Shown here: one piece after another, positions 7,651-61,990 of the stretch
How positions within the stretch are numbered: position 1 is the stretch's first letter
Layout: each line of letters begins with the position of its first letter
Origin: Diplonema papillatum
Lineage: Eukaryota; Euglenozoa; Diplonemea; Diplonemida; Diplonemidae
Direction of reading: 5' to 3'
NCBI GenBank assembly: GCA_030068145.1
Contig: JAPJBO010000021.1
Span: 124,001 to 188,000 of the forward strand
Length of the DNA stretch: 64,000 nucleotides
The notes under the pieces: model-generated
Seen by the model: the letters and a program-made list of their open reading frames with translations, nothing else
What the model was told of the DNA's origin: nothing
Database searches by the model: none
Position numbers and translations under genes: made by a program

Positions 7651-7902
7651 GCTTATTTCGGACCGGCCGCGTTGCTGCCCTCAAACCTCGCACTCGTGTG
7701 CTTGCTAACAAGAAAGATAAACGGCAAACCAAGCTAGACCACTAAACTGCACTACTTGTGCCACGAAAGATACCAATCCCGATACCATGCCGCATAAAGA
7801 ACATGAGTCTGCAAAATAAAACCGCCCGAACAGTACAGTTTTTCGGGAGGGGAGTTGCACCCGGGGCCCCCTTGGGGGTGCCGTTGGCAACACTCGTAAC
7901 GG

Positions 7903-9501: not shown

Positions 9502-9563
9502 ACCCGTACCGCTTCTAGACTTTCTAGGCGATCCCGGGCGCCCGCGCGCCTTGGCGTCATCCC

Positions 9564-10706: not shown

Positions 10707-10768
10707 TTTCCTTATTCCCGCCTGAAAGGCTGCAGTTACCTGCCCCCGTCCCGAGTTCCCCCCAATTG

Positions 10769-11743: not shown

Positions 11744-11889
11744 GTTTGCGATCGGTCGGGAGGGGAGTTGCTGTGTGCTCCTGCGGTCTTTGTGTTTTTC
11801 GTACTTGACCAACAGGTTCACCCCCCCGCACGCCAAGTCCGCCCTTCGGTATAAGTTCGTCCAGAACTTCACTCACTTCGTTCACGAAG

Positions 11890-12030
11890 TTCTTGATCCC
11901 TCTCTCTGTTTCAGAACATTCAGTGCTTTTCGTTCTTTTGCGCTCGCGCGCGCGACGCTTTTGCGACACTCAGGAGCGAGGGAAGGGGGTCCGGGGGCGG
12001 GCAGCCGCGCACACCACACACACCAGCGGG
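11890..12030 (+). promoter_or_regulatory. 5' region of the primase gene with acceptor-like pyrimidine tract
   Basis: A strong polypyrimidine-AG signal (TCCCTCTCTCTGTTTCAG, ending about 11913) lies 118 bases before the chosen ATG. It could be a cis-splice acceptor for a non-coding first exon or a spliced-leader acceptor. Gag of the retroelement is transcribed away from the other side, so this is a divergent junction. Confidence 0.35.
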
Positions 12031-32304: not shown

Positions 32305-33660
32305 GACTGGAGGTCCTATGAACATGCAATGTGAATAGCCTCTATTCGAGCCAACCCGGCTTTTCTTCATGAAAAAAGTGTATTGAATTTGGAAAGAGCC
32401 GGGCAAGCTTTTTTTTTTCCTCGCAGAAGGTATGCGGGTGGCAGAGTGACCGGGCGCCGGCGTTCAGGCCGGTGAGTCCGGGTTCGAACCCCGCCCATGA
32501 CATTTTTCCGGTCGAAGATTGTTTTCGAGGTTTGTTGCGTTTCGGGGTCAAATGTGCCCGAAAATTGCGTTTTTGGCGGAGTTTCTCAGTATCTCGCGGT
32601 ATTTGGCCGAAGCACTCGGCGGACGTCAAGTACCGGAAGAGGGTGGCGGGGGTCAGGCACGGCTGCCCAGCGAGCAGGTCGCGGTACGCGCCAGCAAGCT
32701 CGGTTTGGTCGCTCGGCAGCACCGCCGGCGCCGCAACGCTGACGGGTTGCCAGCACCCGCGGAGATACCGCATACGGTCGTGCACGCTGGCGACCATCTT
32801 GTTGCAGAGGTGCCGCCGGGGCCCGCCGCAGAGGATCCCGTCTTTGAACGGGCCCGGCCGCCTTTCCGAGCCCCGCGAAACTTCGCCGTCGTCGGCGGCG
32901 CGCGCGCCGCCTCGCGCCAGCTGCGCCAGGCGCTCGCCTGCGCCGCGAGCGGCTCCGTCGGGTTCGTCGGCGAGCGGAAAGCGGCCGTCGCCAGGGACCC
33001 GCTGTGCGGGACGGCGTGCAGGGCGTACAACGGCTGCCGCGCGCGGTGGATGCGGTAGGTGCCCAGCTCCGAGACCCGGAATCGGACGCTCGGCGCCCGC
33101 CACGCGGCTTCTTTGGACAGCAGGATACTCTGGTTGACCGTCTGGGACGTGGCCAAGTGGAGGATCGAGACGCAGAACTCAGCTTCGTGCGAACTTTGCT
33201 TCGTCCGAACTCAGCTGCGCCCGTACCAGAATTTAGCATCGCCCGAACTTTGCTTCACCAGAACTTAGCTCCGCCCGAACTTAGGATCACTCGAACTCAT
33301 TATCGTCCGAACTGAGCTTCACCAGAACTTAGCTCCGCCCGAACTTTTGCTTCGCCGGGGGGCGGCGGGGGGGGGGCGCCCACCCGGGTACCAGCGCCAA
33401 ACTTTTCCCGCACTCGGTGGGTCGGGGGGGGTCCGGGGGGGGTGTCCCCCCGGGTACGAGCACCGACCTTGGCTTCACCCGGACTTTACACCCTGGCCGA
33501 ACTTCGCTTCGTGCCCGAACTGTTTTTTAGTACCAGCGCAGCCTGAGCGCTTAGCAACGCCCGAACTAAGCATCACTCGAACTTAGCTTCACCAGCATTG
33601 CCCGAACTTAGCTTCGCCCGAACTTTACTGTTCCCCGAACTTTAACTGCTGCCTCCAGTC
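32305..33660 (+). mobile_element. tRNA-headed SINE-like repeat, copy 2, with internal insert
   Basis: Starts TTCGAGACTGGAGGTCCTAT, has the tRNA-like head at about 32440-32505 (GGTGGCAGAGTGACCGG; GGGTTCGAACCCC), then TTCCGGTCGAAGATTGTTTT. A foreign 580-bp block (32590-33168) interrupts it before the tail of GAACTTAGCTTCGCCC-type words (33170-33660). Apart from the insert it matches the inverted copy at 1925-2450. Confidence 0.65.
32590..33168 (-). pseudogene. Captured GC-rich coding fragment inside the SINE
   Basis: On the minus strand one frame reads SKEAAWRAPSVRFRVSELGT and, after a shift near 32890, another reads GILCGGPRRHLCNKMVASVH and LFRYLTSAECFGQIPRDT. Both look like real protein and the GC content jumps relative to the flanks. 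No family recognised. Likely a captured, frameshifted piece of a host gene that lies outside this window. Confidence 0.4.
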
Positions 33661-41255: not shown

Positions 41256-41670
41256 TGATGTAAATTTGTTGCATTAGTGTGATTGTCAGGCCTTCGACTA
41301 CCCTGAGCAACGCACTATAACTATAAGCCACCTGATCACGCACACTGTTTGTCTCCGGTGCGCGCTTCACGTCCGATGTGCAGTTGACGACGAGCTCGAG
41401 GAATCACCAGAACAAGTCCGGGGGGTAGTAGTATAGGAGTGGGCCACACAGCCTTTCCCCACAAGGTAGCAGGGAAAGAACCATCCGCAGATTTTGGCCG
41501 ATCCTCAACAAAGTCCCTGCTAGGTAGCCCCCCCTCCCTACCAAAACGTGTAAATTAGGAGCCGCAAAGCAACCTTTTCGGCCTTTTGAAGAACACCGTT
41601 GCGCGCAACCGTGTCGCGTAGTCGTTTTGGTGCCGGCGAGGGGGTGGGTACTGCGTGGGCCACCCGGGCG

Positions 41671-44600
41671 ATGGCGGACGTTCCAACGGGTCGCCTGGGC
41701 GACGACCTGCAGCGGATCCACGAGCTGAAAGAGGACCTCCTGCAGAGCAAGAAGCTCTCGACCGCGGAGCAGAACTTGCTGGCGAAGGAGTATGCCGAAG
41801 CCCTCAACGCCACCGCGGCCGCGCTGATGCGGAGGAGGGAAGATCTCGACCACGTCGCTCGCCTACTCAACGAGGCCGAGTTCATCACGCGAGAGAACGA
41901 GGGCTATTTCGGAACCTCGGCCTACGCGCAGAAGCTGCGAGAAGAGCAGCGGGCGTCGACGTACTCCTCCCTCGCTTTTCTGTCGAGGCTCAACGGGATG
42001 GAGGATGACGCGGTGCTCTACCTGCTGGAAACCGCGTCCCTTGAAGGCGAGCCGACGCCGGCCACGAACATCAGCCTCTCGCTGCTCCTCCTGGAGCTCG
42101 ACCGGCACGACGCGGCCGTAGGTCCGGCGCAGCAGGCTATTGATGCGTCGGCTGAAAAGTGCAAGCAGGCGTCGGCCCGCGGCGGGAGCGTCGCGGAGCA
42201 CGATTTGAACGTCCTCGCGTGCGGCTACCACCTGCTGTCCATTGCGCAGGCGGGCTCGATCCTGCCCGACCGGCGGTGCCAGGCGCCGTCGAACTTCGAG
42301 AAGGCGATGGCCTACGCGCAGCAGCTCGGCGCGGACAGCGATATCGCGCACCAGGTCCTCGCGTCGCTGTCCGAGTCCCGCCACCTGTCAAGCAGAGGCA
42401 GCGGCGGCGGGAGCGCGGAGTGGGCAGCGCCGGGGACCCCGATAGAGGGGCCCGACGACCAGGAGGAGGACACGCAGGAGGAGCAGCAGCCGGAGACGAA
42501 GAAGAAGAAGAAGAAGGGTAAAAAAGTCGACGCGTTCGCGTCGCCGTCGAGCACGCTCGACGGAGCGTGGGGCGGCGAGCACGACCCCGAGCCGCGGGGC
42601 GCGCCGCCAGAGCGGCTGTTCACGCACCGGAACGTGGTCCCCGCGCACCACCCGCACGCGGCGCAAGCCGCCGCCGACAACGGGCGCAGCTTCGCCAGCA
42701 CGCACCACGCGCCGCGCGCGAGCTGGGCGGCCGCGCCGGCGCCCGCGTCCTTCGCGGACACCCTGCCGCCGCCCGTGTCCCTGCCGCCGGTAGACTGCCG
42801 TGGGGGCGCTTCGCGCCCCCACGAGTTCACCCCGTCGCCGCCGCCCCCGGCTCCCGGCGGCGGCAGGTGCAGCGGCGCGGGTTCGGTGGCGGCGCGCGCG
42901 ATGCAGGCGGAAGACCCGGGCGGCGCTGAACAAGCGCCCGCGGGTCCCCCCCTCCGGCGGATCGCAAGGCGGAGGTACGGTCCGTTCGCCGGCGTCGACT
43001 TCGGCGGTGCCGACGGCACCGGCGTCGACCCCGGCTGCGCCTCCGCCGACTACTCGTACGAGGCGGCGGCGGTGCTCACGAACCAGAGGAACCCGGCGAG
43101 CACGTTCCGGCTGCGCCTCGGCGTCACCACCATCGGCAGCACGCAGCTGCTCCACTCGCACGCGGGCGACACCCGCAATTACGTGGTCTGGCCCGAGTTC
43201 GCGGCGCTGAAGCCGGTGCACTGCCTCGTCGCGTGCGACGTTACCGGCAGCCTCTTCGTCGCCGCCGCCGGCCGCCTCTGCGCCGTCCGCCGCAACGGGC
43301 TCCGGGTCAGCGCCACCGCCGAGCGCATCTTCCCAGGAGACCGGCTGGTCCTCGGCGAAAACGCGGTCGCCTGCTTGGTCACGGAGCCTGCGCCCAGCAG
43401 CTCCGATGCTGGCGCCGTTGAAATGGTCAACGGCGGCGCGCCGTGCGCGCCGCGGCCGCCGTCGGGCCGGAGGCCCGGCCCACGCGGCCGCGGCAGCCCG
43501 GAGAGCGAGCTGTGGCGGGACCTGCGGCCGACGAACATCCGCGCGTACATCGAGCACCTGAAGCGGCAGGTCGACGAGGAGGAGGCGAAGCTGCGGGTGC
43601 CGACGAGGCCGAGGTCGTACACTCCGTTGTCTTCGATGGCGACCACCGACGACGACAAAGCAGAGGACCCGTGCCAGGAGGCCGCCCCGGGTTCCCCCGT
43701 GTCGGCGTCTGCCGCGTCCGGATCGGACGGGGGCCCTCCCGACCCCGGGCCGGCGCCGGTCCTGGCGCATCTCGCGCTGTGCGAGGACCTGCTGCGGCAG
43801 GCGGACGGGTTCGACCCGGCAACGTCGCTGTTCAGCGCGTTCCTGCGGTGGGGCGAGTCGTGGGCCGCGCCGCGCGTCGGCGCGCCTGCGCCGCGCCCGG
43901 CGCCGGAGCTCGCCGGGGGCGAGGCGCTGGCCACCGCCGCGTCGACGCCCGCCCCCGGTGCCCTCGCAGCCCTGGATGCCTTGCTGGCTGCGCTCGCCGA
44001 ACCACCGCCGCCCGCCGCCAGCGGCGACGGCGGCCGCCCGCCCGTCGCTGGGCTTCAAAGCCGCGGCGAAGGCGAGTCAGCGGACCCGGGGGAACCCGCA
44101 GGGGCCACCCAACACCCATCGAACGCCTGCCACGCCGCCTCGCACGGCGGGGAAACAGTCGAGGCGGGGGAGTGTGTGCGGATGCTGTTTGACATGAGCC
44201 CGGAGATGGTCGGCTTGCGGGTGTTGGTCCGGTCGATGTCTGATGGAGGCGTTGAAGACGGCGGAGCGCGGACGTCTGCGAGCCCCAACGGAGTCGCGGG
44301 AAGAAGAGCCGCTGCCAGCTGCTTGCAGCGGGGCCATGCGCTGGCTCTGTGCACGGATCCCTCCGGCGGCATGACGCCGGCGCTGCTGTGCGTGAGAGAC
44401 GCCCTCTGCCCGCCAGACGCCCGGCTGCCGCCGGATGCAAAACACACGCCCGCCCGAAGGCGGCTGAGCAGCCTCCGCGGGCCGCCGCCAGCCAATGCGG
44501 GGCCCAGCCGCGCCGCGCCGCAGGGCAGCACCGGCCTGGCCCTCCTCCTCGCCGACTCAGCGCCCGCCGAGGTCCCGACGCTGCTGTTCCTGACCGGCCT

Positions 44601-45930
44601 CATGGGGCCGGAGCCGCCGCCGTCGGCGGCGCCGCGGCACGCCGCCCCGGCGCTCGCGGCGGGCGAAGCCCTTGCGTGCGTCGTGGCCGCGCAGGACCCC
44701 GCGGCGCTGCCCGCGCTGGGCGCCGTGCGCGGCGCTTTTTCCGAGCCGGGCGGCCCTGCGAAGCGGGATCTGACCCAGCAGAAGGCATCGAATGGCGACT
44801 TGACTCAACAGAAGGCATCGAATGGCGACTTGACTCAACAGAAGGCATCGAATGGCGACTTGACTCAACAGAAGGCATCGAATGGCGACTTGACTCAACA
44901 GAAGGCATCGAATGGCGACTTGACTCAACAGAAGGCATCGAATGGCGACTTGACTCAACAGAAGGCATCGAATGGCGACTTGACTCAACAGAAGGCATCG
45001 AATGGCGACTTGACTCAACAGAAGGCATCGAATGGCGACTTGACTCAACAGAAGGCATCGAATGGCGACTTGACTCAACAGAAGGCATCGAATGGCGACT
45101 TGACTCAACAGAAGGCATCGAATGGCGACTTGACTCAACAGAAGGCATCGAATGGCGACTTGACTCAACAGAAGGCATCGAATGGCGACTTGACTCAACA
45201 GAAGGCATCGAATGGCGACTTGACTCAACAGAAGGCATCGAATGGCGACTTGACTCAATCGAATGGCGACTTGACTCAACAGAAGGCATCGAATGGCGAC
45301 TTGACTCAACAGAAGGCATCGAATGGCGACTTGACTCAATCGAATGGCGACTTGACTCAACAGAAGGCATCGAATGGCGACTTGACTCAACAGAAGGCAT
45401 CGAATGGCGACTTGACTCAATCGAATGGCGACTTGACTCAGCAGAAGGCATCCAACGGCGAATTGATGCAACAGAAGGTATTCAACAGCGAACTGATCCA
45501 ACAGAAGGCATCGCACGGCGAGCTGGCGCAGCGAAAGGCATCGAACGGCGAGCTGATCCAGCTCATCGTCGACGGCAACACGCAGCGGCAGTTTCCGGAG
45601 CTGTACTTCCTGAACCGCGTCGCGAGCGACCGGACGTTCCCGCTGCCCGGCGGCGACGCGCGGAGGCAGGCCGCCGCCGGCTCGATCCAGGCTGGGTGGC
45701 GCTCGTCGCGGGCGCGCGCGAAAACCGGCGCGCGCCGTGGCGTCCGGGCCGACGCCGACAAAGCCTCGGACCGTCACGAAGCCGCCGCCGTCGTCCAGTA
45801 CCAGTACCGGTGCTACCGGCACAGGAAGCTGTGCAAGCGAGAGGTGTGCCCGTGCCCCCTCCCCCATCAAGTCGAAGACTTGATGCTAACATCAAACATG
45901 CATGCGAGACAGTGTTCTGCCTATTATTAA
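41671..45930 (+). CDS. TPR / FHA-like / IQ-motif protein with decapeptide repeats
   Basis: I start at the ATG at 41671 (MADVPTGRLGDDLQRIHELK); the open frame upstream has no Met. Residues about 1-260 are helical and TPR-like (TNISLLLLELDRHDAAVGPAQQ). A lysine run with KKKKKKGKK is at about 276-285. Residues about 479-575 look like an FHA domain: RLGVTTIGST, then ALKPVHCLVAC and RNGLRVSATAERIFPGDRLVLGE, though the conserved R-S-H is not clear. A Pro/Ala-rich linker follows, then about 25 copies of SNGDLTQQKA (about 1034-1300) and two IQ-like motifs (SIQAGWRSSRARA, VVQYQYRCYRHRK) that may bind calmodulin. The last ~25 codons come from a repeat family, so the true C-terminus may be spliced elsewhere (a possible donor follows CAAGCGAGAG near 45842). 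Function unknown; scaffold or cytoskeletal role is conceivable. Confidence 0.7.
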   Translation: MADVPTGRLGDDLQRIHELKEDLLQSKKLSTAEQNLLAKEYAEALNATAAALMRRREDLDHVARLLNEAEFITRENEGYFGTSAYAQKLREEQRASTYSSLAFLSRLNGMEDDAVLYLLETASLEGEPTPATNISLSLLLLELDRHDAAVGPAQQAIDASAEKCKQASARGGSVAEHDLNVLACGYHLLSIAQAGSILPDRRCQAPSNFEKAMAYAQQLGADSDIAHQVLASLSESRHLSSRGSGGGSAEWAAPGTPIEGPDDQEEDTQEEQQPETKKKKKKGKKVDAFASPSSTLDGAWGGEHDPEPRGAPPERLFTHRNVVPAHHPHAAQAAADNGRSFASTHHAPRASWAAAPAPASFADTLPPPVSLPPVDCRGGASRPHEFTPSPPPPAPGGGRCSGAGSVAARAMQAEDPGGAEQAPAGPPLRRIARRRYGPFAGVDFGGADGTGVDPGCASADYSYEAAAVLTNQRNPASTFRLRLGVTTIGSTQLLHSHAGDTRNYVVWPEFAALKPVHCLVACDVTGSLFVAAAGRLCAVRRNGLRVSATAERIFPGDRLVLGENAVACLVTEPAPSSSDAGAVEMVNGGAPCAPRPPSGRRPGPRGRGSPESELWRDLRPTNIRAYIEHLKRQVDEEEAKLRVPTRPRSYTPLSSMATTDDDKAEDPCQEAAPGSPVSASAASGSDGGPPDPGPAPVLAHLALCEDLLRQADGFDPATSLFSAFLRWGESWAAPRVGAPAPRPAPELAGGEALATAASTPAPGALAALDALLAALAEPPPPAASGDGGRPPVAGLQSRGEGESADPGEPAGATQHPSNACHAASHGGETVEAGECVRMLFDMSPEMVGLRVLVRSMSDGGVEDGGARTSASPNGVAGRRAAASCLQRGHALALCTDPSGGMTPALLCVRDALCPPDARLPPDAKHTPARRRLSSLRGPPPANAGPSRAAPQGSTGLALLLADSAPAEVPTLLFLTGLMGPEPPPSAAPRHAAPALAAGEALACVVAAQDPAALPALGAVRGAFSEPGGPAKRDLTQQKASNGDLTQQKASNGDLTQQKASNGDLTQQKASNGDLTQQKASNGDLTQQKASNGDLTQQKASNGDLTQQKASNGDLTQQKASNGDLTQQKASNGDLTQQKASNGDLTQQKASNGDLTQQKASNGDLTQQKASNGDLTQQKASNGDLTQQKASNGDLTQSNGDLTQQKASNGDLTQQKASNGDLTQSNGDLTQQKASNGDLTQQKASNGDLTQSNGDLTQQKASNGELMQQKVFNSELIQQKASHGELAQRKASNGELIQLIVDGNTQRQFPELYFLNRVASDRTFPLPGGDARRQAAAGSIQAGWRSSRARAKTGARRGVRADADKASDRHEAAAVVQYQYRCYRHRKLCKREVCPCPLPHQVEDLMLTSNMHARQCSAYY
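44770..45460. repeat. Coding minisatellite, 30-bp unit
   Basis: About 16 identical 30-bp units (ATCGAATGGCGACTTGACTC plus AACAGAAGGC) are followed by three 81-bp blocks of 21+30+30, in which 9 bp (CAGAAGGCA) are missing from one unit. Degenerate units follow to about 45560. Identity at synonymous positions points to recent unequal exchange. Confidence 0.9.
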
Positions 45931-46175
45931 CATTAAACTAAGTTTTCCCCCAGCTTTTTCTTGTGACCAACGCACTGTTGGTACTAAGAATTGGTAATTG
46001 GCGGGATACTGCATGAAGCTTGCAGTGTTCCTAAAACTAGTAGTTGGTTGCGCACTACATGAAACTACCAAAGCAGGTGAGTTCCGGTAGTGCAGACAAA
46101 CAAGGTTAGATGCGCCGTCAGGGTAGCAGCTGCGGCGGGTTACTGGGGGGGGGTGATGTACTCAACACCCCCGAC

Positions 46176-46615
46176 ACGTACTTTCCACCCCCCGAAAGTA
46201 CTTTCCACCCCCCGAAAAGTACTTTCCACCCCCCGAAAAGTACTTTCCACCCCCCGAAAAGTACTTTCCACCCCCCGAAAAGTACTTTCCACCCCCCGAC
46301 AAAAAATTTCCACCCCCCGAAAAGTACTTTCCACCCCCCGACGAAAAATTTCCACCCCCCGAAAAGTACTTTCCACCCCCCGAAAAGTACTTTCCACCCC
46401 CCGACGAAAAATTTCCACCCCCCGAAAAGTACTTTCCACCCCCCGAAAAACACTATCCACCCCCGGACAAAAAATTTCCACCCCCCAAAATGTACTTTCC
46501 ACCCCCCGATGGAAATTTTCCACCCCCCAAAAAGTACTTTCCACCCCCGGACAAAAAAATTTCCACCCCCAGAAAAGTACTTTCCACCCCTCGAAAACTA
46601 CTTTCCACCCCCCGA
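46176..46615. repeat. C-tract array, word A (21 bp)
   Basis: About 20 copies of GAAAAGTACTTTCCACCCCCC, with variants in which the word is GACAAAAAATTTCC or GACGAAAAATTTCC. The word AAAGTACTTT is itself palindromic. The unit length, a multiple of three, leaves long open frames that I do not regard as genes. Confidence 0.9.
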
Positions 46616-47038
46616 CCAGATACGCAAACTCTTTCGAACGCTGCACACGGGTATCCTTCAAGTGACCTCTAACTATCTGTTGCATACGCGTATCCGGATC
46701 TGAAAGCCGAAGACTTTGTAACACTTTACCGCAACCGAAGTCGCGAACCGGGTTCGGCTTGCACTGCAAAAGCAGCATAATTGTGTCTTGCGCCCGAGCG
46801 CGGAAATCCGCCACCCGCCATTCGGCTAGAGTGCAAGAACACAATTGCGAAGCGTACTACAAACGGATAGTGTTACAAAGGCGAACGAATCATGCGAGAA
46901 CCTATGGAGGGGCCCCTCGACAGCTTTCAGAACACGGCATAGTAAGTCAAGAGTCGGATAAGCGTGTACACGTTTTACTCCCGTTTGATCTGCATTTTCC
47001 ACCTTTCCCCCCTTTCTTTGATTTGCTGTGTGTATTTG
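46616..47038. repeat. Shared core, copy 1 (about 425 bp)
   Basis: Starts CCAGATACGCAAACTCTTTC and ends CTGTGTGTATTTG. It is roughly 97% identical to 51390-51814. Both copies keep a plus-strand frame of about 70 codons (MHCKSSIIVSCARARKSA) and a minus-strand frame of about 75 codons (MCSCTLAEWRVADFRARA); with so few differences this does not prove coding. Confidence 0.85.
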
Positions 47039-47068
47039 CAAAAACAGTTCCAGCCACAATCTGCAGGT

Positions 47069-47458
47069 CTGCGGGCTTGCGGGTTTGCGGGTATGCGGGG
47101 TTTGCGATTTCGGGTTTGCGGGAACGGGTATGCGGGTTCGGGTATGCGGGTTTGGGTATGCGGGTTTGGGTACGCGGGTATGCGGGTTTGCGAGAACGGG
47201 TATGCGGGTTCGGGTACGCGGGTTTGCGGGTTTGGGTACGCGGGTATGCGGGTTTGGGTATGCGGGTTTGGGTTTGCGGGTTTGCAGGTTCGGGTATGCG
47301 GGTTTGCGGGAACGGGCATGCGGGTTTGCGAGAACGGGTATGCGGGTTCGGGTATGCGGGTATGCGGGTTTGGGTTTGCGGGTTTGCAGGTTCGGGTATG
47401 CGGGTATGCGGGAACGGGTATGCGGGAACGGGTATGCGGGTTTGCGATTTCGGGTTTG
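47069..47458. repeat. G-rich degenerate telomere-like tract 1
   Basis: Irregular 6-8 bp units of GCGGGTTT, GCGGGTAT, TCGGGTAT and GGAACGGGTAT run without interruption. G-runs of three to four recur every 6-8 bases, as in telomeric repeats, but TTAGGG itself is absent here. Confidence 0.8.
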
Positions 47459-47930
47459 CCCGAAAATCCCGAAAAGTACTTTCCACCCCCCGAAAGTACT
47501 TTCCACCCCCCGAAAAGTACTTTCCACCCCCCGACCAAAAATTTCCACCCCCGAAAAGTACTTTCCACCCCCCGAAAAGTACTTTCCACCCCCCGACGAA
47601 AGTTTCCACCCCCCGATAAGTACTTTCCACCCCCCGAAAAACACTTTCCGCCCCCCGACAAAAAATTCCACCCCCCGAAAAATACTTTCCACCCCCCGAC
47701 AAAAATTTCCACCCCCCGAAAAGTACTTTCCACCCCCGAAAAGTACTTTCCACCCCCCGACGAAACGTTTCCACCCCCCGATAAGTACTTTCCACCCCCC
47801 GATAAACACTTTCCGCCCCCCGACAAAAAAATTCCACCCCCCGAAAAATACTTTCCACCCCCCGACAAAAATTTCCACCCCCCGAAAAGTACTTTCCACC
47901 CCCCGACAAGAGTTTCCACCCCCCGACATC
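47459..47930. repeat. C-tract array, word A, second block
   Basis: The same words as the block at 46176-46615, in the same orientation, on the far side of the core and G-rich tract. It contains a larger internal duplication (about 47550-47720 versus 47730-47900). Confidence 0.85.
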
Positions 47931-48222
47931 GATTTATACCCCCCGATTTATATATTCTATACCCCCGGATTTATACTCTATACCCCCCGATTTATACTCT
48001 ATACCCCCGGATTTATACTCTATACCCCCGGATTTATACTCTATACCCCCCGATTTATACTCTATACCCCCGGATTTATACTCTATACCCCCCGATTTAT
48101 ACTCTATACCCCCCGATTTATACTCTATACCCCCGGATTTATACTCTATACCCCCCGATTTATACTCTATACCCCCCGATTTATACTCTATACCCCCGGA
48201 TTTATACTCTTTACCCCCCGTT
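47931..48222. repeat. C-tract array, word D (21 bp)
   Basis: About 13 copies of GATTTATACTCTATACCCCCG or with CCCCCC. Two subtypes (ending CCCCCGG or CCCCCCG) alternate. It joins the word A array without a spacer. Confidence 0.9.
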
Positions 48223-48271
48223 TTTCGGGGGGTGGAAAGTACGTGTCGGGGGTAAAAAGTAATTCACGGGG

Positions 48272-48905
48272 GGGGGGGTCAAATACAATAGGTATAATAT
48301 TGTATTTGCTGGGGGAGGCTAAAAACCGGCTTTTCAAAAGTCTGGGAGCCGAAAGTCTGGGTACAGGCACTTGGGGGTCAACAATGGAGGAAATTTGGCA
48401 AAGACTTTGCGGGACGGAAAGAGCTATCCCTGGCATGTATCGGCACCTTTTCTACACTCGATATAGCCTAAAATCTGGCCCCCAGATGGCACTTCAGGCG
48501 TTGGAAAAACCACTCCGCCAGGAATCGACCAGCACCCTCAGCACCACATGTGGGTGTGGGAACCGCTGGACCACGTGCTAAAAAAAAGCGGGCCATTTCT
48601 TTTTGGGTTCGGGTGGTTCTCAGAAGTTATTGAACCCGAATCCGAGGAAAATGCCATCGTCAGCGAAAATCAAGCAGTAAGATTGGACTCCCGGCTTCAG
48701 GAGTGTTCTACATTGAACTTCTCTCGAAAAAGAGACAGCGGCTCTCGAGTGGGGAAGCCCGAGGAAACCCCTGCAAACCCCCACCGAGGACAAATATTAT
48801 TGTATTCCAAAACTATGCTCACCGAAACCCCCTTTTCAGCGTACCTATTGTATTTGCCAATATTATTGTATTTGACTACCTACAGTATTTGACCCCCCCC
48901 AGTAA
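48272..48905. mobile_element. Sub-element with inverted GGGGTCAAATAC ends
   Basis: The left end GGGGGTCAAATACAATAGGT faces the right end CTACAGTATTTGACCCCCCC, about 630 bp apart, with further TATTGTATTTG words inside both ends. The interior has weak open frames (MEEIWQRLCGTERAIPGMYR) of unknown origin. Confidence 0.5.
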
Positions 48906-48933
48906 GTAGCGGGATCTACGGGGACCACGGCTG

Positions 48934-49290
48934 AGTGCACACCTAAGCGGGGCTGCATCCTCGTGTTGTACAAAGCTTGAGTCGGAGGCAGCACAGTGCC
49001 ACAACCCCGTCCGCTCTGCCCTGTGGCTGACCGTCTCGACGAGCTTGTGTTCAGCGCGAGCGCCAAGCCCCAAGGTGCGCCACACCTTGATGCCTTAGTT
49101 TGGGAAATCGGTCGATAGCCACTTGACCCGTAGGCCCGTGGCTCTGCAGTACCGCCGAACACGTTAAACTTGGCTCCCGTGTAGCAGGCTTTCCCTGGTA
49201 CCTAGGAACGACAGAGAAGAAAAGGAAACGCAAACACCTGCCCTTGCTGTCCCGGATTGCTTCGGCAGTTCTACAATTATTCACGCACAA
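48934..49290 (+). mobile_element. GGCTGCATCCTCGTGTTGTA family, copy 2
   Basis: Shares its start and its GATTGCTTCGGCAG end with 36955-37190, plus GTAGCAGGCTTTCCCTGGTA with the SEC63 flank duplication. From 49291 to 50278 no gene is recognised apart from a TTGATGCTAGCAT repeat near 49978. Confidence 0.55.
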
Positions 49291-50278
49291 CTAATGGGGC
49301 TTCCCGTTCCACCAGCAAACCGCAGGCGAAGGGGGCGGGGTTGCGGCATGGTGCTGTCTTCGACTACTCCTGGAGTTGACCGACCCGTGGATTCCCCCCT
49401 CTCCTTTCAGACATAGACTCTCGGGCTTGTGAGCTCATCATTATCCATTTTCCCGACCTAAAAGTGACACCCCCCACACCGCAGCTGGAAACCCGACGGC
49501 AGTGCACGAGCGCATACATCGCGCGATTGGCGAATGACGAGCTCTGATCCCGTTGACGTATCGAGGCAGCGTGCGAGCAGTTGGCGGCGTGCAACCACGC
49601 GAGAAAAAAAAAGAAACGAAACGATAGAAAGTGCTAGGTACAGGAAACCTCTTCAGAGGTTCCTTCCCAGGAGTCACGAAGGTCACGACTAATTCATCTT
49701 CTCACTCACCATTGATCCCGATCGCCCGTCCGCTTGTTTACCCTACACTCACACCGGAAGGAACTGCTGTTAACAATATCGCTACCGTCGCCACCGGCTT
49801 TCAATACGAATCAGGTCTTTAGCCCTGAGACGCCCTGCATTATCGTCGACGGACCGAGAGTCCCTCGCGGGTCGGATCACTCCCCTTTTCCTCTGTTTTT
49901 TTCCACAAGTTGTCGACAACTAACAAGTAAAAGAATACAACAAAACCACGCATTCCCCCTCAATTAAGACAGGCGTGTTTGATGCTAGCATCTAACGTGC
50001 ATGAGTGGCAGGGGTTTGCCTAAGTGACACAATAACACAATAAGACGTTGCCCCCTAAACTTGTATGAGGTCATGCCTCGTGGTCACCTTCCGGCTGGGA
50101 AAGCTTGCAGATCTTTCGACCAGGCATGCTTTCGCAGCAGGAAGGAGGCGCAATCCGTCTTGTTCCCCTTTTTTTTTGTTCTCCGCTGTGGTACGAAAAG
50201 GCAGGACTTCCGTTCCCTTGCCGAAATCTTACCCTCTCGTGTCTGATAATTTGTGCGAAGTCGATCACTTGATGCGTT

Positions 50279-50518
50279 TCACGCTCTTTTCCTTCCGCAA
50301 TGCCATGGAGCCTCGGGCCATACGACGAGGGTGTGTTTCGTGTCGAACGCGATCCACCGGGCCCCCGACAGGCGCGTGCCGGCGCAGAGCGTCATCCGCT
50401 TGCTCCACTCGACGTAGACGCTTCCCAGCTTCCCGTCGAAGAGCTCGTCTTTGTACCGCACGAACAGCGCGTGCACGTCCGGGCACGGGTCGAGCAGCTC
50501 GAGGTCGACGCCTGCCAT
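50279..50518 (-). pseudogene. SPRTN (Spartan) protease N-terminal exon or fragment
   Basis: From the ATG at 50518 the frame reads VDLELLDPCPDVHALFVRYK and VYVEWSKRMTLCAGT. This matches the start of the SprT domain of SPRTN/DVC1, the DNA-dependent metalloprotease that removes DNA-protein crosslinks (family pattern: LDP-x-PD-x-x-x-LF ... V-x-W-S-x-RMTLCAG-x-C). After CAGT the match fades and the HEXXH zinc site is absent. Either this is a first exon whose next exon I cannot find on the minus side, or a truncated copy. The flanks are repeats, and other gene fragments in this window are fossils, so I lean to a fragment. Confidence 0.55.
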
Positions 50519-50844
50519 CCGCGCCGCGAGAGCGAAGCCTTCCCTTTCCGGGCGTCACCAGAAGTCCAAAATTCGAAACCTACCGCTCAGGTGCCCGTAA
50601 AATGCTCCGAAAGGGCGGGAAAAGTGGTCAGACGCTCGTTTAGGCTGAAATAACGGCTGCAGGATGCGAAAACAAGGCCAAATCACCCTCACAAGCCAGT
50701 TCCTAGGCAATTCCTTAAGGAAAAACATCAAAACTCAACCAGCAGCCACAAAAAACAGCCCGACTAGGACACAACCGCAAAGGGATCCCAAAAACAATCG
50801 GAAACCTTGGGAAGGGGTTCCAAGTACATGCTGTTAAGTCTGTC

Positions 50845-51290
50845 GGTGAAATTTGTTCCGGAACTGTGAATTTGTTCCGGGAAGTGAAAATTTGTTCCGG
50901 GGTGAGTTTTTTTTTTCTGGGAGGCTCACTGATCGTGTCAGCCATTTTTAGCCAAATGAAAAAAAAATCTCACCCAGGAACAAATTAGTCAGAAAAAAAG
51001 CCCACCCCGGAACAAATTTTCAGTTCCCGGAACAAATTCGGTGAGAAAAAACACGCAGTCTTTTTTCGCTTGGTCTTATTCTCCCAACAATATAGGTGAA
51101 CACCCAAACACACACCTTCTCCCTTTCCGATTTTTTGCGCCACTGACCCGCAGGTCAGAAAAAATTTCAACACCCCGGAACAAATTTTCACTTTCGGAAC
51201 AAATTTTCACCTCCCGGAACAAATTTTCACCTCCCGGAATAAAAAAGTCGGAAGAAAGTCGGAAGAAAAGCCACCCCGGAATAAATTAGC
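50845..51290. repeat. C-tract array, word B (20 bp), first block
   Basis: Units around CCCGGAACAAATTTTCACTT, first as the reverse complement (AATTTGTTCCGG, 50855-50905), then forward with spacers of GTCGGAAGAAA and CACCC. It is sparser than the word A arrays. Confidence 0.75.
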
Positions 51291-51389
51291 CCCACACCCC
51301 CCCCCCCCCACTCACACCGCAGTCCTGTCTGCAGACACTCAGGTTCCACGCTGATGATGGTCCGCCTTATGTGTCCGTGGCTTAAGACT

Positions 51390-51814
51390 CCAGATACGCA
51401 AACTCTTTCGAACGCTGCACACGGGTATCCTTCAAGTGACCTCTAACTATCTGTTGCATACGCGTATCCGGATCTGAAAGCCGAAGACAATGTAACACTT
51501 TACCGCAACCGAAGTCGCGAACCGGGTTCGGCTTGCACTGCAAAAGCAGCATAATCGTGTCTTGCGCTCGAGCGCGGAAATCCGCCACCCGCCATTCGGC
51601 TAGAGTGCAAGAACACAATTGCGAAGCGTACTACAAACGGATAGTGTTACAAAGGCGAACGAATCATGCGAGAACCTATGGAGGGGCCCCTCGACAGCTT
51701 TCAGAACACGGCATAGTAAGTCAAGAGTCGGATAAGCGAGTGTGCACATTCTACTCCCGTTTGATCTGCATTTTCCACCTTTCCCCCCTTTCTTTGTTCT
51801 GCTGTGTGTATTTG
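51390..51814. repeat. Shared core, copy 2
   Basis: Second copy of the 425-bp core of element I. Differences are single bases and one small block near the end (GAGTGTGCACATTC for GTGTACACGTTTT). Confidence 0.85.
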
Positions 51815-51827
51815 AAAAACGTTATCG

Positions 51828-52132
51828 CATGCGGGTAAGCGGGGTTTGCGGGTTAGGGTATGCGGGTTTGCGGGTTAGGGTATGCGGGTTTGCGGGTTAG
51901 GGTATGCGGGTTTGCGGGTTGCGGGTTGCGGGTTTGCGGGTTAGGGTATGCGGGTTTGCGGGTTCGGGTATGCGGGTTTGCGAGTTAGGGTATGCGGGTT
52001 CGGGTATGCGGGTTTGCGGGGTTTGCGGGTTAGGGTTTGCGGGGTTAGGGTACGCGGGTTGCGGGTTCGGGTTTGCGGGTTTGGGTATGCGGGTTTGCGG
52101 GTTCGGGTATGCGGGGGGGGGTTCGGGTATGC
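51828..52132. repeat. Interstitial telomere-like tract with TTAGGG units
   Basis: GGGTTAGGGTATGCGGGTTT and close variants repeat about 10 times. GGGTTAGGG occurs several times, interleaved with GCGGGTTT. Sits directly after the core, as in element I. Confidence 0.85.
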
Positions 52133-52202
52133 GTACCTCACACAAAAATTGTAAAAAGCACACACAAATGGTGAAAATCTGGAAAATTTGGCAAACCCCA
52201 AG

Positions 52203-52345
52203 TTTTCAGTTTCCGGAACAAATTTTCACTTCCCGGAATAAATTTTCACTTCCCGGAACAAATTTTCACTTCCCGGAATAAATTTTCACTTCCCGGAACA
52301 AATTCGTCGGAAAAAAAGCCTGAAAAAAAGCTCACCCAGGAATAA
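52203..52345. repeat. C-tract array, word B, second block
   Basis: Five clean units of CGGAACAAATTTTCACTTCC with AATAAA variants, ending CCCAGGAATAAATTAGC. Confidence 0.8.
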
Positions 52346-52414
52346 ATTAGCTCGACCCGGGGGGGGGGCGCAAGGGGCTCTGTTGGTGTTCTGCCTAGGT
52401 CCTTCAACAACAGA

Positions 52415-52860
52415 CAGGCAGAGAGAGAGTTAAAGAAGAGCACCTATTCGGTGTCGGAAAGTTGTTGGAATGAGATCAGGCAAACCTTGTGCGTTGGTTT
52501 TGTTTAGCCGATCTAACTCACGCCACATCTTCGCTTTCACTTCATTACCCCTGTGACAAGCCCGTACCTCTCCGCCGCGAGGTCGAACTTTACCCTGGCG
52601 CCGCCGGCCGCGAGCAGGCAGAGCCCCGCCGCGCAAAGGATGGGCGCGGCGCGTGGCGTCGCCCCCTGCTCCGTCCTTCGGTGTGCCCATTGCTTGTTTT
52701 CCTGGGCGGGTTTTGTTCGTTTTCTGCCCAGGCAGAAAGAGAGAGAGAGAGTTAAAATAGAGCACCTATTTGGTATCGGAAAGTAGATCAGGCAAACCTT
52801 GTGCGTTAGCTTCGTTCAACCGATCATACACATCTTCACTTTCACTTCACTTCATTACTG
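52415..52860 (+). mobile_element. Twin retroelement leaders flanking a chimeric fragment
   Basis: Two direct copies of the RT1-type leader (GA run, GAGCACCTATT, GATCAGGCAAACCTTGTGCG, TTCACTTCATTAC) at 52415-52560 and 52735-52860 flank a minus-strand coding chimera. The right copy ends at TTACTGGGGGGGGGT, the terminus word of element I, and a 28-bp perfect palindrome centred on GGTACC (52870-52897). Confidence 0.6.
52563..52715 (-). pseudogene. Chimeric fragment: channel-gene leader joined to RT1 sequence
   Basis: Minus strand 52715-52610 repeats the 5' end of the gene at 54388-54505 (GATGGGCACACCG, GGACGGAGCAGGGGGCGAC, then the codons for APILCAAGLCLLAAG), but lacks the main ATG. It runs straight into TTCGACCTCGCGGCGGAGAG, which resembles the RT1 coding sequence for EFDLAAKRY. 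Two unrelated sources are joined within about 150 bp. Confidence 0.55.
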
Positions 52861-53383
52861 GGGGGGGGTCGAATACAAGAGGTACCTCTTGTATTCGGCG
52901 TGCCGATCCTGCAATTTTCCCGCAAAAGAAATGGAAAAAAGTACCGCAAACCCGGAAACCGCGGGAACTCCCTTCTTCTTGAAAGACACACGTAATTTGT
53001 GGTCCCCGGGTCTATTTTCCACGGTTCTCTTCATCGGAGCTGAACGTGAGCACAAATTCGCCGAAAAAGGTCTGCAACATGGGCCAGCAAAGAAATATCA
53101 CCAACCAGTGCGTCGATTCCCGTCCTTCCCGATGAAAACCTGTGGTTTCCATGCCTGCTGATCAGCCCGTGAAGGTCGCACTCTTGCGCCGCGCTTTTAG
53201 AGTCCGGGTCCCGGCAGTTTGGCGACACATTCTGCGGGCGTTTTAGGAGCCCACACCGGTGTGGATCAAACTCTCCTGACGACAATTACACTGGACGAAC
53301 GCAGGTAATGACGAATATCCTCGAGGCTGTCGTAATTTCTCTTCTCCAAAAATATTAAAATACATAGAGTCAAAAGGGCACCC

Positions 53384-53462
53384 CCCCGAAAACACGGCGC
53401 AGATGGGACCAGTGCGGTGTTGAGCACATACCCATTCCAAGCACGTTCTTGCAATCCCCCCA
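53384..53462 (-). mobile_element. Repeat family R165, copy 4 (partial)
   Basis: Runs from GAAAACACGGCGCAGATGGG to CCAAGCACGTTCTTGCAATC. A short protein-like minus-strand frame (MVEVPKGKECEEVILRAEG, about 53550-53465) abuts it; no family recognised. Confidence 0.65.
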
Positions 53463-53774
53463 TTCCAGTAGGGTACTTCGCGTAACGCGACTTGCTGCCC
53501 TCAGCACGCAGAATTACTTCCTCGCACTCTTTTCCTTTTGGTACTTCAACCATTGGTGCTGCACATGGCAACCCCATGTTCACTGTGCTCTGCGGAGTTT
53601 ACTTCGCAGATTGCCACCGTAAAAAGAAGACAAGTCAGTGCTGCCTAGCGAGTCGCAGTCACAATCAGGGCGAGTGCCCTGAGTTTTTTAACTGATTGCT
53701 CAGACACGGTTGTAGGGGCCTTCTCCCCGTGACGGATTCGCCTGTGCTCTAGTAGCACGGGTGGTCCTGGCTGT

Positions 53775-53962
53775 GACGAGCTACGAACAGCCGCCTGACA
53801 AACCAGACTCAAACCGCAGTCCTGTCTGCAGACACTCAGGTTCCACGCTGATGATGGTCCGCCTTATATGTCCGTGGCTTAGAGGACCGAAACACGGCGC
53901 AGACGGGACCAGTGCGGTGTTGAGCACATACCCATTCCAAGCACGTTCTTGCAACCCCCCCC
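53775..53962 (-). mobile_element. Repeat family R165, copy 5 (longest)
   Basis: Complete from GAACAGCCGCCTGACAA to GTTCTTGCAACCCCCC. Copy 3 of the same family is at 51308-51388 (-). Confidence 0.7.
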
Positions 53963-54119
53963 CCCAGGAAATCCGCTTTCCCAAAGGGAACACCTGTGGA
54001 AGTAGCAATGAGGACTTGGACCGGTACGGGCTACATGGCAACTCCTGCTCAACATGTAGAACGTGGGGAGCCCTTGGTCACATTCATTACGGGTGTGGTC
54101 GTGGTGACGGTCGCAATAG

Positions 54120-58689: not shown

Positions 58690-61600
58690 TGGCGCCTGAC
58701 GAGCGCCAGGCCGAAGACGGCCAGGCTCGCTTCGGTTGAGATCCGCCGTGCCGCGTGCATGGCGTGAAGCTCGCCTGGTTGAGATCCGTCTACCCTGATC
58801 ACCGACGTGTAGGCTCGCTTTGGTTGAGATCCGCCGTGCAGCGTGCACGGCGTGAAGCTCGCCTGGTTGAGATCCGTCTACCCTGATCACCGACGTGTAG
58901 GCTCGCTTTGGTTGAGATCCGCCGTGCCGCGTGCACGGCGTGAAGCTCGCCTGGTTGAGATCCGTCCGGCCTGGTCACTGACGTGTAGGCTCCCTGTGGT
59001 TGAGATCCGCCGTGCCGCGTGCACGGCGTGAAGCTCGCCTGGTTGAGATCCGTCTACCCTGATCACCGACGTGTAGGCTCGCTTTGGTTGAGATCCGCCG
59101 TGCAGCGTGCACGGCGTGAAGCTCGCCTGGTTGAGATCCGTCCGGCCTGGTCACTGACGTGTAGGCTCCCTGTGGTTGAGATCCGCCGTGCCGCGTGCAC
59201 GGCGTGAAGCTCGCCTGGTTGAGATCCGTCTACCCTGATCACCGACGTGTAGGCTCGCTTTGGTTGAGATCCGCCGTGCAGCGTGCACGGCGTGAAGCTC
59301 GCCTGGTTGAGATCCGTTCCTGGTCACTGACGTGCAGGCTCCCTGTGGTTGAGATCCGCCGTGCCGCGTGCACGGCGTGAAGCTCGCCTGGTTGAGATCC
59401 GTCTACCCTGATCACCGACGTGTAGGCTCGCTTTGGTTGAGATCCGCCGTGCAGCGTGCACGGCGTGAAGCTCGCCTGGTTGAGATCCGTCTACCCTGAT
59501 CACCGACGTGTAGGCTCGCTGTGGTTGAGATCCGCCGTGCCGCGTGCACGGCGTGAAGCTCGCCTGGTTGAGATCCGTCCGGCCTGGTCACTGACGTGTA
59601 GGCTCCCTGTGGTTGAGATCCGCCGTGCCGCGTGCACGGCGTGAAGCTCGCCTGGTTGAGATCCGTCTACCCTGATCACCGACGTGTAGGCTCGCTTTGG
59701 TTGAGATCCGCCGGGCAGCGTGCACGGCGTGAAGCTCGCCTGGTTGAGATCCGTCCGGCCTGGTCACTGACGTGTAGGCTCCCTGTGGTTGAGATCCGCC
59801 GTGCCGCGTGCACGGCGTGAAGCTCGCCTGGTTGAGATCCGTCTACCCTGATCACCGACGTGTAGGCTCGCTTTGGTTGAGATCCGCCGTGCAGCGTGCA
59901 CGGCGTGAAGCTCGCCTGGTTGAGATCCGTTCCTGGTCACTGACGTGCAGGCTCCCTGTGGTTGAGATCCGCCGTGCCGCGTGCACGGCGTGAAGCTCGC
60001 CTGGTTGAGATCCGTCTACCCTGATCACCGACGTGTAGGCTCGCTTTGGTTGAGATCCGCCGTGCAGCGTGCACGGCGTGAAGCTCGCCTGGTTGAGATC
60101 CGTTCCTGGTCACTGACGTGCAGGCTCCCTGTGGTTGAGATCCGCCGTGCCGCGTGCACGGCGTGAAGCTCGCCTGGTTGAGATCCGTCTACCCTGATCA
60201 CCGACGTGTAGGCTCGCTTTGGTTGAGATCCGCCGTGCAGCGTGCACGGCGTGAAGCTCGCCTGGTTGAGATCCGTTCCTGGTCACTGACGTGCAGGCTC
60301 CCTGTGGTTGAGATCCGCCGTGCCGCGTGCACGGCGTGAAGCTCGCCTGGTTGAGATCCGTCTACCCTGATCACCGACGTGTAGGCTCGCTTTGGTTGAG
60401 ATCCGCCGTGCAGCGTGCACGGCGTGAAGCTCGCCTGGTTGAGATCCGTTCCTGGTCACTGACGTGCAGGCTCCCTGTGGTTGAGATCCGCCGTGCCGCG
60501 TGCACGGCGTGAAGCTCGCCTCGTCTACCCTGATCACCGACGTGTAGGCTACCTGTGGTTGAGATCCGCGATGCCCGTAGACGGCGTGAAGCGCCTGGCT
60601 GAGATCCGTCTAGCCTGATCACCGACGTCTAGACACGCTTCTGCTGAGAGCCACCGTGCCGCGTGCGCGGCGAAGCTCGCCTTGCTGAAATCTGTCTGGC
60701 CTGAGTGAGCACTGGCGTGTATGCTCGCTTCTGCCGCGGTCTGCCGTGCCACGCGCACAGCGTGCATGCTCGCTTTGCTGGGATCCGTCAGGCGCCTGTC
60801 GAGCGCATGGTCGTTGACGTGTAGGGTCGCTGCGGCTAAGATCCGCCGTGCCCCGTGCACGGCGTGAAACTCGCCTGGTTGAGATCCATCTGGCCTGGTC
60901 ACTGACGTGTAGACTCGCGGCTAAGATCCGCCGTGCCCTGTGCACGGCGTGAAACTCGCCTGGTTGAGATCCATCTGGCCTGGTCACTGACGTGCAGGCT
61001 CGCTTTGGCTGAGATCCGCGATGCCCGTGCACGGCGTGAAGCGCCTGGTTAAGATCCGTCTAGCCTGATCCCTGACGTCTAGACACGTTTCTGCTGAGAT
61101 CCGCCGTGCCGCGTGCACGGCATGAAGCTCGCCTTGCTGAAATCTGCCTGGCCTGAGCACTGACGTGTAGGCTCGCTTCTGCTGCGGTCAACAGCGTGCA
61201 TGCTCGCTTGGCTGGGATCCGTCATGTGCCTGTCGAGCGCATGGTCGTTGACGTGTAGGCTCGCTGTGCCTCGTGCACGGCGTGAAGTTTGCCTGGTTGA
61301 GATCCATCTGGTCTGGTCACTGACGTGCAGGCTCCTTGGCTGAGATCCGCCGTGTCGCGTGCACGGCATGAAGCTCTCCTGGCTGAGATGAGTTGGCCTG
61401 ACGGCTGACGTGTAGGCTCGCTTCTGCTGCGGTCTGCCGTGCCACGCGCGCAGCGTGCATGCTCGCCGTACCGGGGGTCCGTCGGGCGCCTGTCGAGCGC
61501 ATGGTCGTTGACGTGTAGGCTCGCTGCGGTTGAAGATCCGCCATGCCGCGTGCATGGCGTGAAGCTCGCCTGGATGAGTCCATCTGGCCTGGTAACTGAC

Positions 61601-61990
61601 GTGCAGATTAGCTCAGCATTCCCAAACTGAGCGACTCGTGCTAGCAAGGAGTTACATGGCTCGCCGAGGAAATACGGGACTCTAATCCTCTGTGGATGTC
61701 GCTTCGGCCGAGATCCGCCGTGCCGCGTGCACGGCACGAAGCTCTCCTGGCTGCGATCAGTCTGGCCTGACAGCTGACGTGTAGGCGCGCTTTTGGCTGA
61801 GATCCGCCGTGCCGCGTGCACGGCGAAGCTCGCCTGGCTGAAATCCGTCTGGCCTGAGCACTGACGCGTAGACTCACTGCTGCTGCGGTCTGTGCTTGCT
61901 TTGCCGAGATCCGTCAGGCGCCTGTCGAGCGCATGGTCGTTGACGTGTAGACCCGTGCCACGCACACAGTGCAAGCTCGCCTGGTTGAGG
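58690..61990. repeat. Dimeric satellite, 88-bp monomers in 176/173-bp units
   Basis: From about 58735 to 60555 the array is a regular alternation of two 88-bp monomers, one with GCTTTGGTTGAGATCCGCCG and GTGCAGCGTG, the other with CCTGTGGTTGAGATCCGCCG and GTGCCGCGTG. Later dimers carry a 3-bp deletion (173 bp). From 60555 to 61600 and 61690 to 61990 units are diverged, interrupted by an insert with GATTAGCTCAGCATTCCC. Each unit contains GTTGAGATCCG twice and GTGCACGGCGTG. Repeated 61-62 codon frames are by-products. Confidence 0.9.

Follow-up and report, generated by a model that had tools for sequence, protein, structure and literature searches.

A core sequence common to transposon families with different ends and satellite arrays in Diplonema papillatum, provisionally assigned to Mutator-like elements

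Non-autonomous transposons are normally recognised by their common ends, whereas their insides are variable. Ends built of tandem arrays have been described for the Mutator/Foldback element Tm1 of root-knot nematodes, whose inverted arms consist of a variable number of ~14-bp tandem units (excerpts of PMC3169594), and the long inverted repeats of Mutator elements contain transposase-binding sites (excerpts of PMC3310237). For Diplonema papillatum (Euglenozoa, Diplonemea), more than 60 open reading frames (ORFs) resembling DNA-transposon proteins, Mutator-like elements (MULEs) included, have been reported, the rigorous identification of elements being deferred by the authors (excerpts of PMC10161547). 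Further background is provided, likewise in excerpts, by a transposon survey in Ectocarpus (PMC12477816) and a paper on diplonemid introns (PMC12621601). Here, positions 124001-188000 of contig C21 from the 271-Mb assembly of this species were analyzed (64,000 nucleotides, referred to as the window), in which two array-bearing elements, I and II, contain nearly the same 425-bp core. The DNA-transposon nature of these elements is solid and their Mutator-like membership provisional. With a probability of roughly two in three, both elements are non-autonomous and belong to a provisionally Mutator-like network of families, between which the core was passed by recombination or gene conversion.

The cores of element I (46616-47040) and element II (51390-51814), both on the plus strand, are 97.4% identical over 425 columns with nine mismatches and one gap opening; the first was delimited by alignment and genome matches, the second by alignment to the first. 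Two cores of about 97% identity, each followed by a G-rich tract, as well as flanking arrays of 20-21-bp units on either side, with different words in the two elements, had already been described in an earlier note on the window, and both observations could be verified. By repeat analysis, the G-rich tracts were located at 47062-47459 in element I (GGGTTTGCGGGTATGCGGG-like) and at 51833-52133 in element II, both on the plus strand. A 36-mer of the core has 674 matches in the assembly at up to three mismatches, compared to none for the reversed pattern used as a control, so that the recurrence of the core is not due to chance. Exact matches of the 36-mer were found neither in a collection of viral contigs nor in a collection of prokaryotic genome contigs. 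Among 40 genome matches scored out of 1014 candidates, 25 reached the top mismatch-free score with the core of element I, its own copy counted.

A coding function of the core was rejected, as its copies differ by indels of 1, 2, 7 and 9 columns. It was also rejected as a tRNA, since a tRNA search of the core found none, and as a structural RNA: the Rfam scan of window positions 44000-54000 gave nothing in the core up to an E-value of 1, and none of 120 predicted pairs shows double (compensatory) changes. The folding z-scores of the core (-2.13 and -1.06) lend little support to a role as RNA. Sub-threshold matches to Rfam microRNA models at 50870-51037 fall on a palindromic arm outside the core. 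At the 3′ end of the core, a pyrimidine tract is present, which might conceivably act as a trans-splice acceptor.

The core was found in at least six array types and with several different ends. Directly beside it, the array word is CCCCCCGAAAAGTACTTTCCA in type I, CCCGGAACAAATTTTCACTT in type II, GAAACGAACCTTCCAAAACTA in type III, CCCCCGGAAAATCTCTTTCCA in type IV, a CCGAACCCAAAACCGA-type unit in type V and CCCAAAAAGTCTTTATTCGCG in type VI (locus L012). Terminal inverted repeats common to all core-bearing elements do not exist. Types II and III have outer motifs with arrays at both ends, and their left arms hold array units of both orientations. The type III left-end pattern has 79 matches in the assembly and the type V end pattern 97, the latter forming 30 inverted end pairs within 12 kb. 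Every array word is associated with particular ends and, in types II and III, with a particular transposase too. The earlier note had supposed that the satellite is exchanged on a fixed core and plan; the array words stay with their own ends, and it seems to be the inner cassette that moves instead. Mobile units with a shared core and different array ends do exist as proposed, but their plan is not universal. For type III (L078), type V (L080, L014), the autonomous type II element (L084) and the older core of L012, the ~700 bp following the core contain no G-rich tract, and the arrays of types III and V are not C-tract arrays. Cores without C-tract arrays and a G-rich tract had been named as evidence that would contradict modular elements, and this applies to the type III and V cores. 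At 33225-33346 in the window, there is an array with the unit ACCAGAACTTAGCACCGCCCGAACTTAGCTTC; a similar word adjoins the left module and core in L075 (contig C114), and the array may belong to another core-bearing family.

For 40 further core copies, taken from the first 61 of the 674 matches (the other 21 were already examined or left out), the upstream side was read. All of them are located in a recognisable element arm: 32 adjoin the left module (for most of these, the outer array was unread), five a type III array, one a type IV and one a type II array, and the remaining copy (L045) lies in a type II arm interrupted by an insertion. A C-run/A-run/GAC junction upstream of the core was detected by script in 39 of the 40 copies; L049 differs by a T in the run. 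It could be assumed that the core is a small mobile element with a preferred C-run/A-run site, inserted separately in each family. This is consistent with the abrupt end of the shared sequence on the right in the compared families, with the existence of type I elements both with and without the core (L036 and L037 consist of array, G-rich tract and array) and with the two cores in L012, an older one of type VI and a newer one ~0.9 kb apart. However, none of the 40 sampled copies is solo, in most families the shared sequence reaches ~35 bp beyond the upstream edge of the core, and neither inverted ends nor a target duplication or a tail belonging to the core were noticed, which makes a mobile core improbable.

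Element I proper is an insert of 2114 bp (46154-48267) nested in the left G-run of another transposon. The limits given in the earlier note, 46139 and 48905, are the ends (TTACTGGGGG...CCCCCAGTAA) of this host transposon, and the outer TTACTGGGG...CCCCAGTAA in the window also belong to the host and not to element I. From the previous description of the two elements, the cores and arrays can be retained, but not the boundaries of element I nor the intactness of element II, which is rearranged. On the plus strand, the host left end (46140-46153; TTACT and G9, with 65 uninterrupted left-end matches elsewhere) is followed by the left terminal inverted repeat and left array of element I (46154-46615; 21-bp unit CCCCCCGAAAAGTACTTTCCA), the left-end pattern of which has 57 assembly matches. 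The core and the G-rich tract are followed by a right array with the same word (47468-47926), a second right array with the unit TATACCCCCCGATTTATACTC (47935-48224), which several other type I copies have too, and the right terminal inverted repeat (48226-48267; right-end pattern with 55 assembly matches). The two right arrays were delimited by repeat analysis. G11 and the rest of the host transposon, TCAAATACAATAGG...GTATTTGACCCCCCCCAGTAA, take up 48268-48905, as determined by comparison with uninterrupted copies. The left edge of the core in type I falls exactly at the C-run, the A-run being lost. Positions 46153-46197 and 48223-48267 form a terminal inverted repeat of 45 nt with 87% complementarity. 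The type I arrays on both sides run in the same direction and the inversion is limited to the outer repeat; what had been taken for inverted outermost units of element I is this terminal inverted repeat.

In the sampled loci (L001-L008 excluded), 19 type I left ends were found, 16 of them with a right end also, at element lengths of 790 to 2691 bp. The flanks beyond the G-runs mostly differ among these copies. Common flanks were observed on the right of L009 and L027 and on the left of L011 and L012, which indicates that part of the landing sites belong to repeats. A search for the empty site of the L027 insertion gave no match. With 57 left and 55 right ends in mostly different flanks, it is supported that type I moves as one unit, in agreement with the earlier suggestion that the units move or copy as a whole. 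The objection raised there, that both copies might lie in one large segmental duplication, fails. Ordinary satellite or segmental duplications, or an assembly collapse, without any transposition are very improbable as an explanation of the data, being already contradicted by dispersed copies with fixed ends. In addition to the defined type I ends in mostly unrelated flanks, they are opposed by five open transposase copies (see below) and by the 30 inverted type V end pairs. Tandem forms do occur, namely in L087 (contig C464), where three whole and one cut unit of array, core and G-rich tract follow one another at a unit length of ~1150 bp, and on contig C509 (158000-162507), where three type II ends are spaced by exactly 2240 bp; some copies are also located near contig ends. 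A type I element of 5.7 kb on C464 was considered as an autonomous partner and rejected, as the 4.8 kb that were read are the tandem of core units in L087.

Insertions are concentrated at G-runs. At least eight G precede 18 of the 19 type I left ends, at least six G follow 15 of the 16 right ends, and at least seven G follow 10 of 11 type II right ends. The only two-ended type I copy (1/16) outside a long G-run is L037 (G4/G2), where no clear duplication could be seen by eye. Junctions running end to end through G-runs were found for the combinations II/I, V/I, II/II and V/III. Insertion in simple repeats together with end-to-end multimers, as known from SaTar elements, was therefore observed, as were long terminal inverted repeats of the Mutator kind, with inverted ends in types I and V and long arrays behind them. 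As to the Foldback-like trait of inverted repeats made of tandem units, there are arrays on both sides, which run in the same direction in type I and include units of both orientations in the left arms of types II and III. At the host end interrupted by element I, the native G-run, computed from the match length, has a median of 8 in the 65 uninterrupted copies and is exactly 8 in 35 of them. The flanks of element I (G9 and G11) correspond to a gain of ~12 G compared to this median, which is compatible with a Mutator-sized duplication without proving one; other copies have longer runs.

The standard non-autonomous type II element, as represented by L029-L035, begins with a G-run, TGTGGGGCTAATTTATTCC, an array with a hairpin, a left module of ~500 bp and C-run/A-run/GACT, followed by the core. 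Downstream of it, there are a G-rich tract, an array, ...CTCGACCC and a G-run. L033 is a whole copy of 2253 bp. Element II in the window is not intact, and only its right half (51384-52358) is in the standard order. Its left arm (50845-51296, minus strand) is a standard type II left end in reversed orientation, with the terminal repeat at 51296, an array of GGAACAAATTTTCACTTCCC and an insert at ~51052-51157. This was recognised by the type II left-end pattern on the minus strand and by alignment to L033, of which positions 153-357 match window positions 51051-50845 at 93%. The outer end of the inverted arm is a C13 run (51297-51309, from a listing of runs). The adjoining segment at 51310-51383 (plus strand) recurs at 53807-53881 (97%) and has no match in other type II copies, the alignments to which start at 51384-51386 (39 further matches). 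To the right of the core and the G-rich tract, the plus strand contains the type II right array with the unit CCCGGAACAAATTTTCACTT (52199-52304, by repeat analysis) and the right terminal repeat (52305-52358) with a 28-mer end that has 140 assembly matches, followed by G10 (52359-52368). A detached fragment of the type II module normally found just upstream of the core is located at 53278-53392 (plus strand; 115 bp, 96.5% identity to positions 676-790 of L029). Beside these detached pieces, a 72-bp repeat at 53390-53461 and 53890-53961 (97%) points to rearrangement in the surroundings of element II. At 52855-52920, there is another element end headed by a G-run, TTACTGGGGGGGGGTCGAATACAAGAGG; a similar G-run-headed sequence flanks a type IV copy in L079.

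Transposase genes were found for two of the families. A complete type III element on contig C47 (L078 and L083) of ~7.1 kb contains, on the minus strand and between type III arms, a single open frame of 1289 aa; the core has the left array on one side and the 3′ end of this gene on the other. In total, the assembly contains five near-identical copies, their open frames being 1212-1289 aa long. Among the 50 matches listed for the type III protein, 22 cover residues 1-145 or 1-146 only, like internal-deletion derivatives. A type II paralogue on contig C441 is 56% identical over residues 2-997 and open over 1104 aa. On one side, it is flanked by the left module and the core; the other side has an inner array of a different kind together with the type II array and right end. 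The outer left array and most of the gene of this copy lie outside the sequence read. Thus, each of the two diverged transposases is paired with an array word of its own, the core being the same in both cases, and the occurrence of this core in different ends and with diverged enzymes points to a swapping of parts between families. D...D, CxxH and E motifs were picked by eye, which we take to be a candidate MULE signature. The C-terminal part of the type III protein (L078/L083) holds an FDSH motif and a second CxC cluster, where no Pfam or NCBIfam family matched. Two further candidates were rejected. On contig C662, which has three type III left ends ~4 kb apart, an apparent chimaeric transposase (L086) reads as two type III copies joined together, the first contributing its left end and the second its right end, and a third paralogue on C441 (82865-85669) was dismissed as the source of a third array word, its 5′ side being type II-like.

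To compare the core with its neighbouring sequences, pairwise BLAST alignments were used. Between the C441 type II element and type III, the core is 97.8% identical, whereas no alignment was obtained upstream (233 bp of the C441 copy) or downstream (1000 bp). For type I and type III, the core identity is 98.3%, with nothing aligned downstream and just short array-like matches upstream. The C441 type II element and type V align at 80.7% upstream (197 columns), 97.4% in the core and 73.8% downstream (286 columns). For non-autonomous type II and type V, the values are 90.1% upstream over 554 columns and 98.3% in the core, with no match downstream. The type IV core is 96.2-96.4% identical to those of types II and I. 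Between families, the core is more alike than the rest of their DNA, and this uniformity can stem from exchange or conversion as well as from constraint.

The second possibility is that the core goes back to a cis-acting or RNA-coding part of the common ancestor of all these transposons; purifying selection would have held it at 97-98%, the ends, arrays and transposases would have diverged around it, and no exchange would be required. This is the main rival explanation and is regarded as unlikely. The variants within the core cross family lines: the old cores of L082 (type II), L012 (type VI) and L087 (type I) have mid-core variants in common that are missing from the newer cores of types I to V, so that the ancestral state, whichever it is, has crossed array types, unless changes recurred. 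The L087 core is a mosaic, in which old-type mid variants are joined to the type I signature at the 3′ end. All four combinations occur in 83 of 666 pairs of two-state columns, which likewise speaks for exchange. Vertical descent under constraint is also opposed by the C441 type II and type III sequences compared, which align in the core only, by the type I elements without a core and, for an RNA, by the pairing and folding results mentioned above. The end motifs point in the same direction. In types II and III, a G-run/TGTGGGG end is located upstream and a GACCC/G-run end downstream of the core, and in type V these motifs, of only 7-8 bp, are reversed relative to the core in both copies read (L080 and L014), as if the cassette had entered in the opposite orientation. 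The longest invariant run in the core is not unusual (P = 0.35). On balance, exchange is favored over constraint alone at about three to one, and both may act.

Several observations count against an exchange of the core within a Mutator-like network, some of them in favor of constraint. The near-constant upstream junction (39 of 40 copies) also fits vertical descent under strong constraint, and the changes are unevenly spread along the core, with 12 of 33 changed sites in the last 55 of 385 bp (chi-square p = 0.014). The sequences beside the core align between types II and V as given above (81% upstream, or 90% for non-autonomous type II, and 74% downstream, next to 97.4% in the core), and the shared left module means that the core is not the sole conserved block. 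When type II is aligned to its old copy L082, the core reaches 93.8% identity and the arm 82.5% in its longest aligned piece. The count of column pairs with all four combinations includes gap columns and may partly be caused by homoplasy. Target-site duplications are unreadable within homopolymeric G-runs, and a transposase could be found neither for type I nor for types IV, V and VI. The Pfam MULE model PF10551 matches residues 413-510 over model positions 1-97 of 99 with an E-value of 0.037 and 14.9 bits, compared to a cut-off of 27.6. No homologue of the transposase was found among the best 7991 scored candidates or among 4347 in a second search, and searches of the PDB and NCBIfam gave no convincing match.

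For the preferred reading, an exchange of the core between families, the following mechanism is proposed. In each family, a long subterminal array with a family-specific word lies behind the short outer motifs, and this word, judging from its position and family specificity, is probably the binding site of the family's own transposase. Copies insert into G-runs or next to them, and since several of these runs are ends of other elements, unrelated elements nest and stack end to end. The inner cassette could be swapped by recombination or gene conversion, e.g., by template switching in gap repair: if post-excision repair switched the template at short GC-rich tracts, interiors would be swapped, perhaps aided by the C-run that borders the core on the left and, for types I, II and IV, also by the G-rich tract. 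Repair-mediated acquisition of sequence occurs in transposons. Transposase binding to the arrays, the route of repair and whatever advantage the core may bring are inferred. It is put forward tentatively that the core may be a non-coding cassette, either selfish or beneficial, which spreads horizontally among the transposon families of one genome and repeatedly replaces their interiors; the families would keep their own transposase and binding-site satellite, and the module would be far more uniform than the enzymes.

Elsewhere in the window, an adenylate-cyclase ORF (2373-4607) with paralogues in D. papillatum and two reverse-transcriptase ORFs on the minus strand (5469-7361 and 7903-10860; Pfam RVT_1, the second below the cut-off) were found. 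Pieces near the latter (7664-7857 and 11394-11907) recur inside the C441 type II element. An open frame of 1443 aa at 41599-45930 holds ~27 units of a 30-bp repeat at its end, and a tandem array of ~3 kb with units of 88/173 bp is located at 58723-61875.

Within this real, large and well-defined transposon network, grouping the elements by their ends yields other families than grouping them by their interiors. If the cassette was exchanged, the genome would be a natural record of recombination between transposon families, and the paired transposases and array words would make the coevolution of enzyme and binding site testable. The elements would also supply full-length DNA transposons for a diplonemid, a member of a very abundant and little-studied marine group. 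In titles and abstract openings, covering the best-ranked matches and few subscription journals, no core common to transposon families with different ends was found, nor, in a search of titles and abstract openings partly confined to best-ranked matches and with few subscription journals, a description of a full-length diplonemid DNA transposon. The excerpts of the D. papillatum paper describe no element, end, array or core (PMC10161547).

The statement of the earlier note that this arrangement is unlike any described transposon class was too strong, as array-armed Mutator/Foldback elements and microsatellite-targeted multimers of Mutator-like elements are described. As far as the excerpts of the following papers show, Tm1 resembles the Diplonema elements in its arms of tandem units, its asymmetric outer motifs, a Mutator-like transposase in some copies and non-autonomous groups with other interiors (PMC3169594). 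Tm1 has common ends and differing interiors, whereas the Diplonema elements have a common core and differing ends, and the 9-bp target duplications reported for Tm1 are unreadable here. The SaTar elements of guayule and rice (PMC5907723) are likewise non-autonomous, Mutator-like and located at simple repeats, with end-to-end multimers of unrelated elements and autonomous partners. They join at microsatellites instead of G-runs, the parts consulted mention no core common to families, and they reportedly never interrupt each other, whereas element I interrupts the G-run end of another transposon. MuTAnT of Medicago (PMC4486113) is Mutator-like, with a specific simple-repeat target and an autonomous copy, but its target is TA, and its abstract mentions neither subterminal arrays nor a core common to families. 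The foldback elements Tetris and DAIBAM of Drosophila virilis (PMC4079207) are modular, with tandem repeats inside their inverted repeats that can grow into satellite arrays; their terminal portions are common to both, whereas in Diplonema the internal part is common and the ends differ. Mutator elements armed with arrays or targeted to simple repeats are known, and what is new is one core common to families with different ends.

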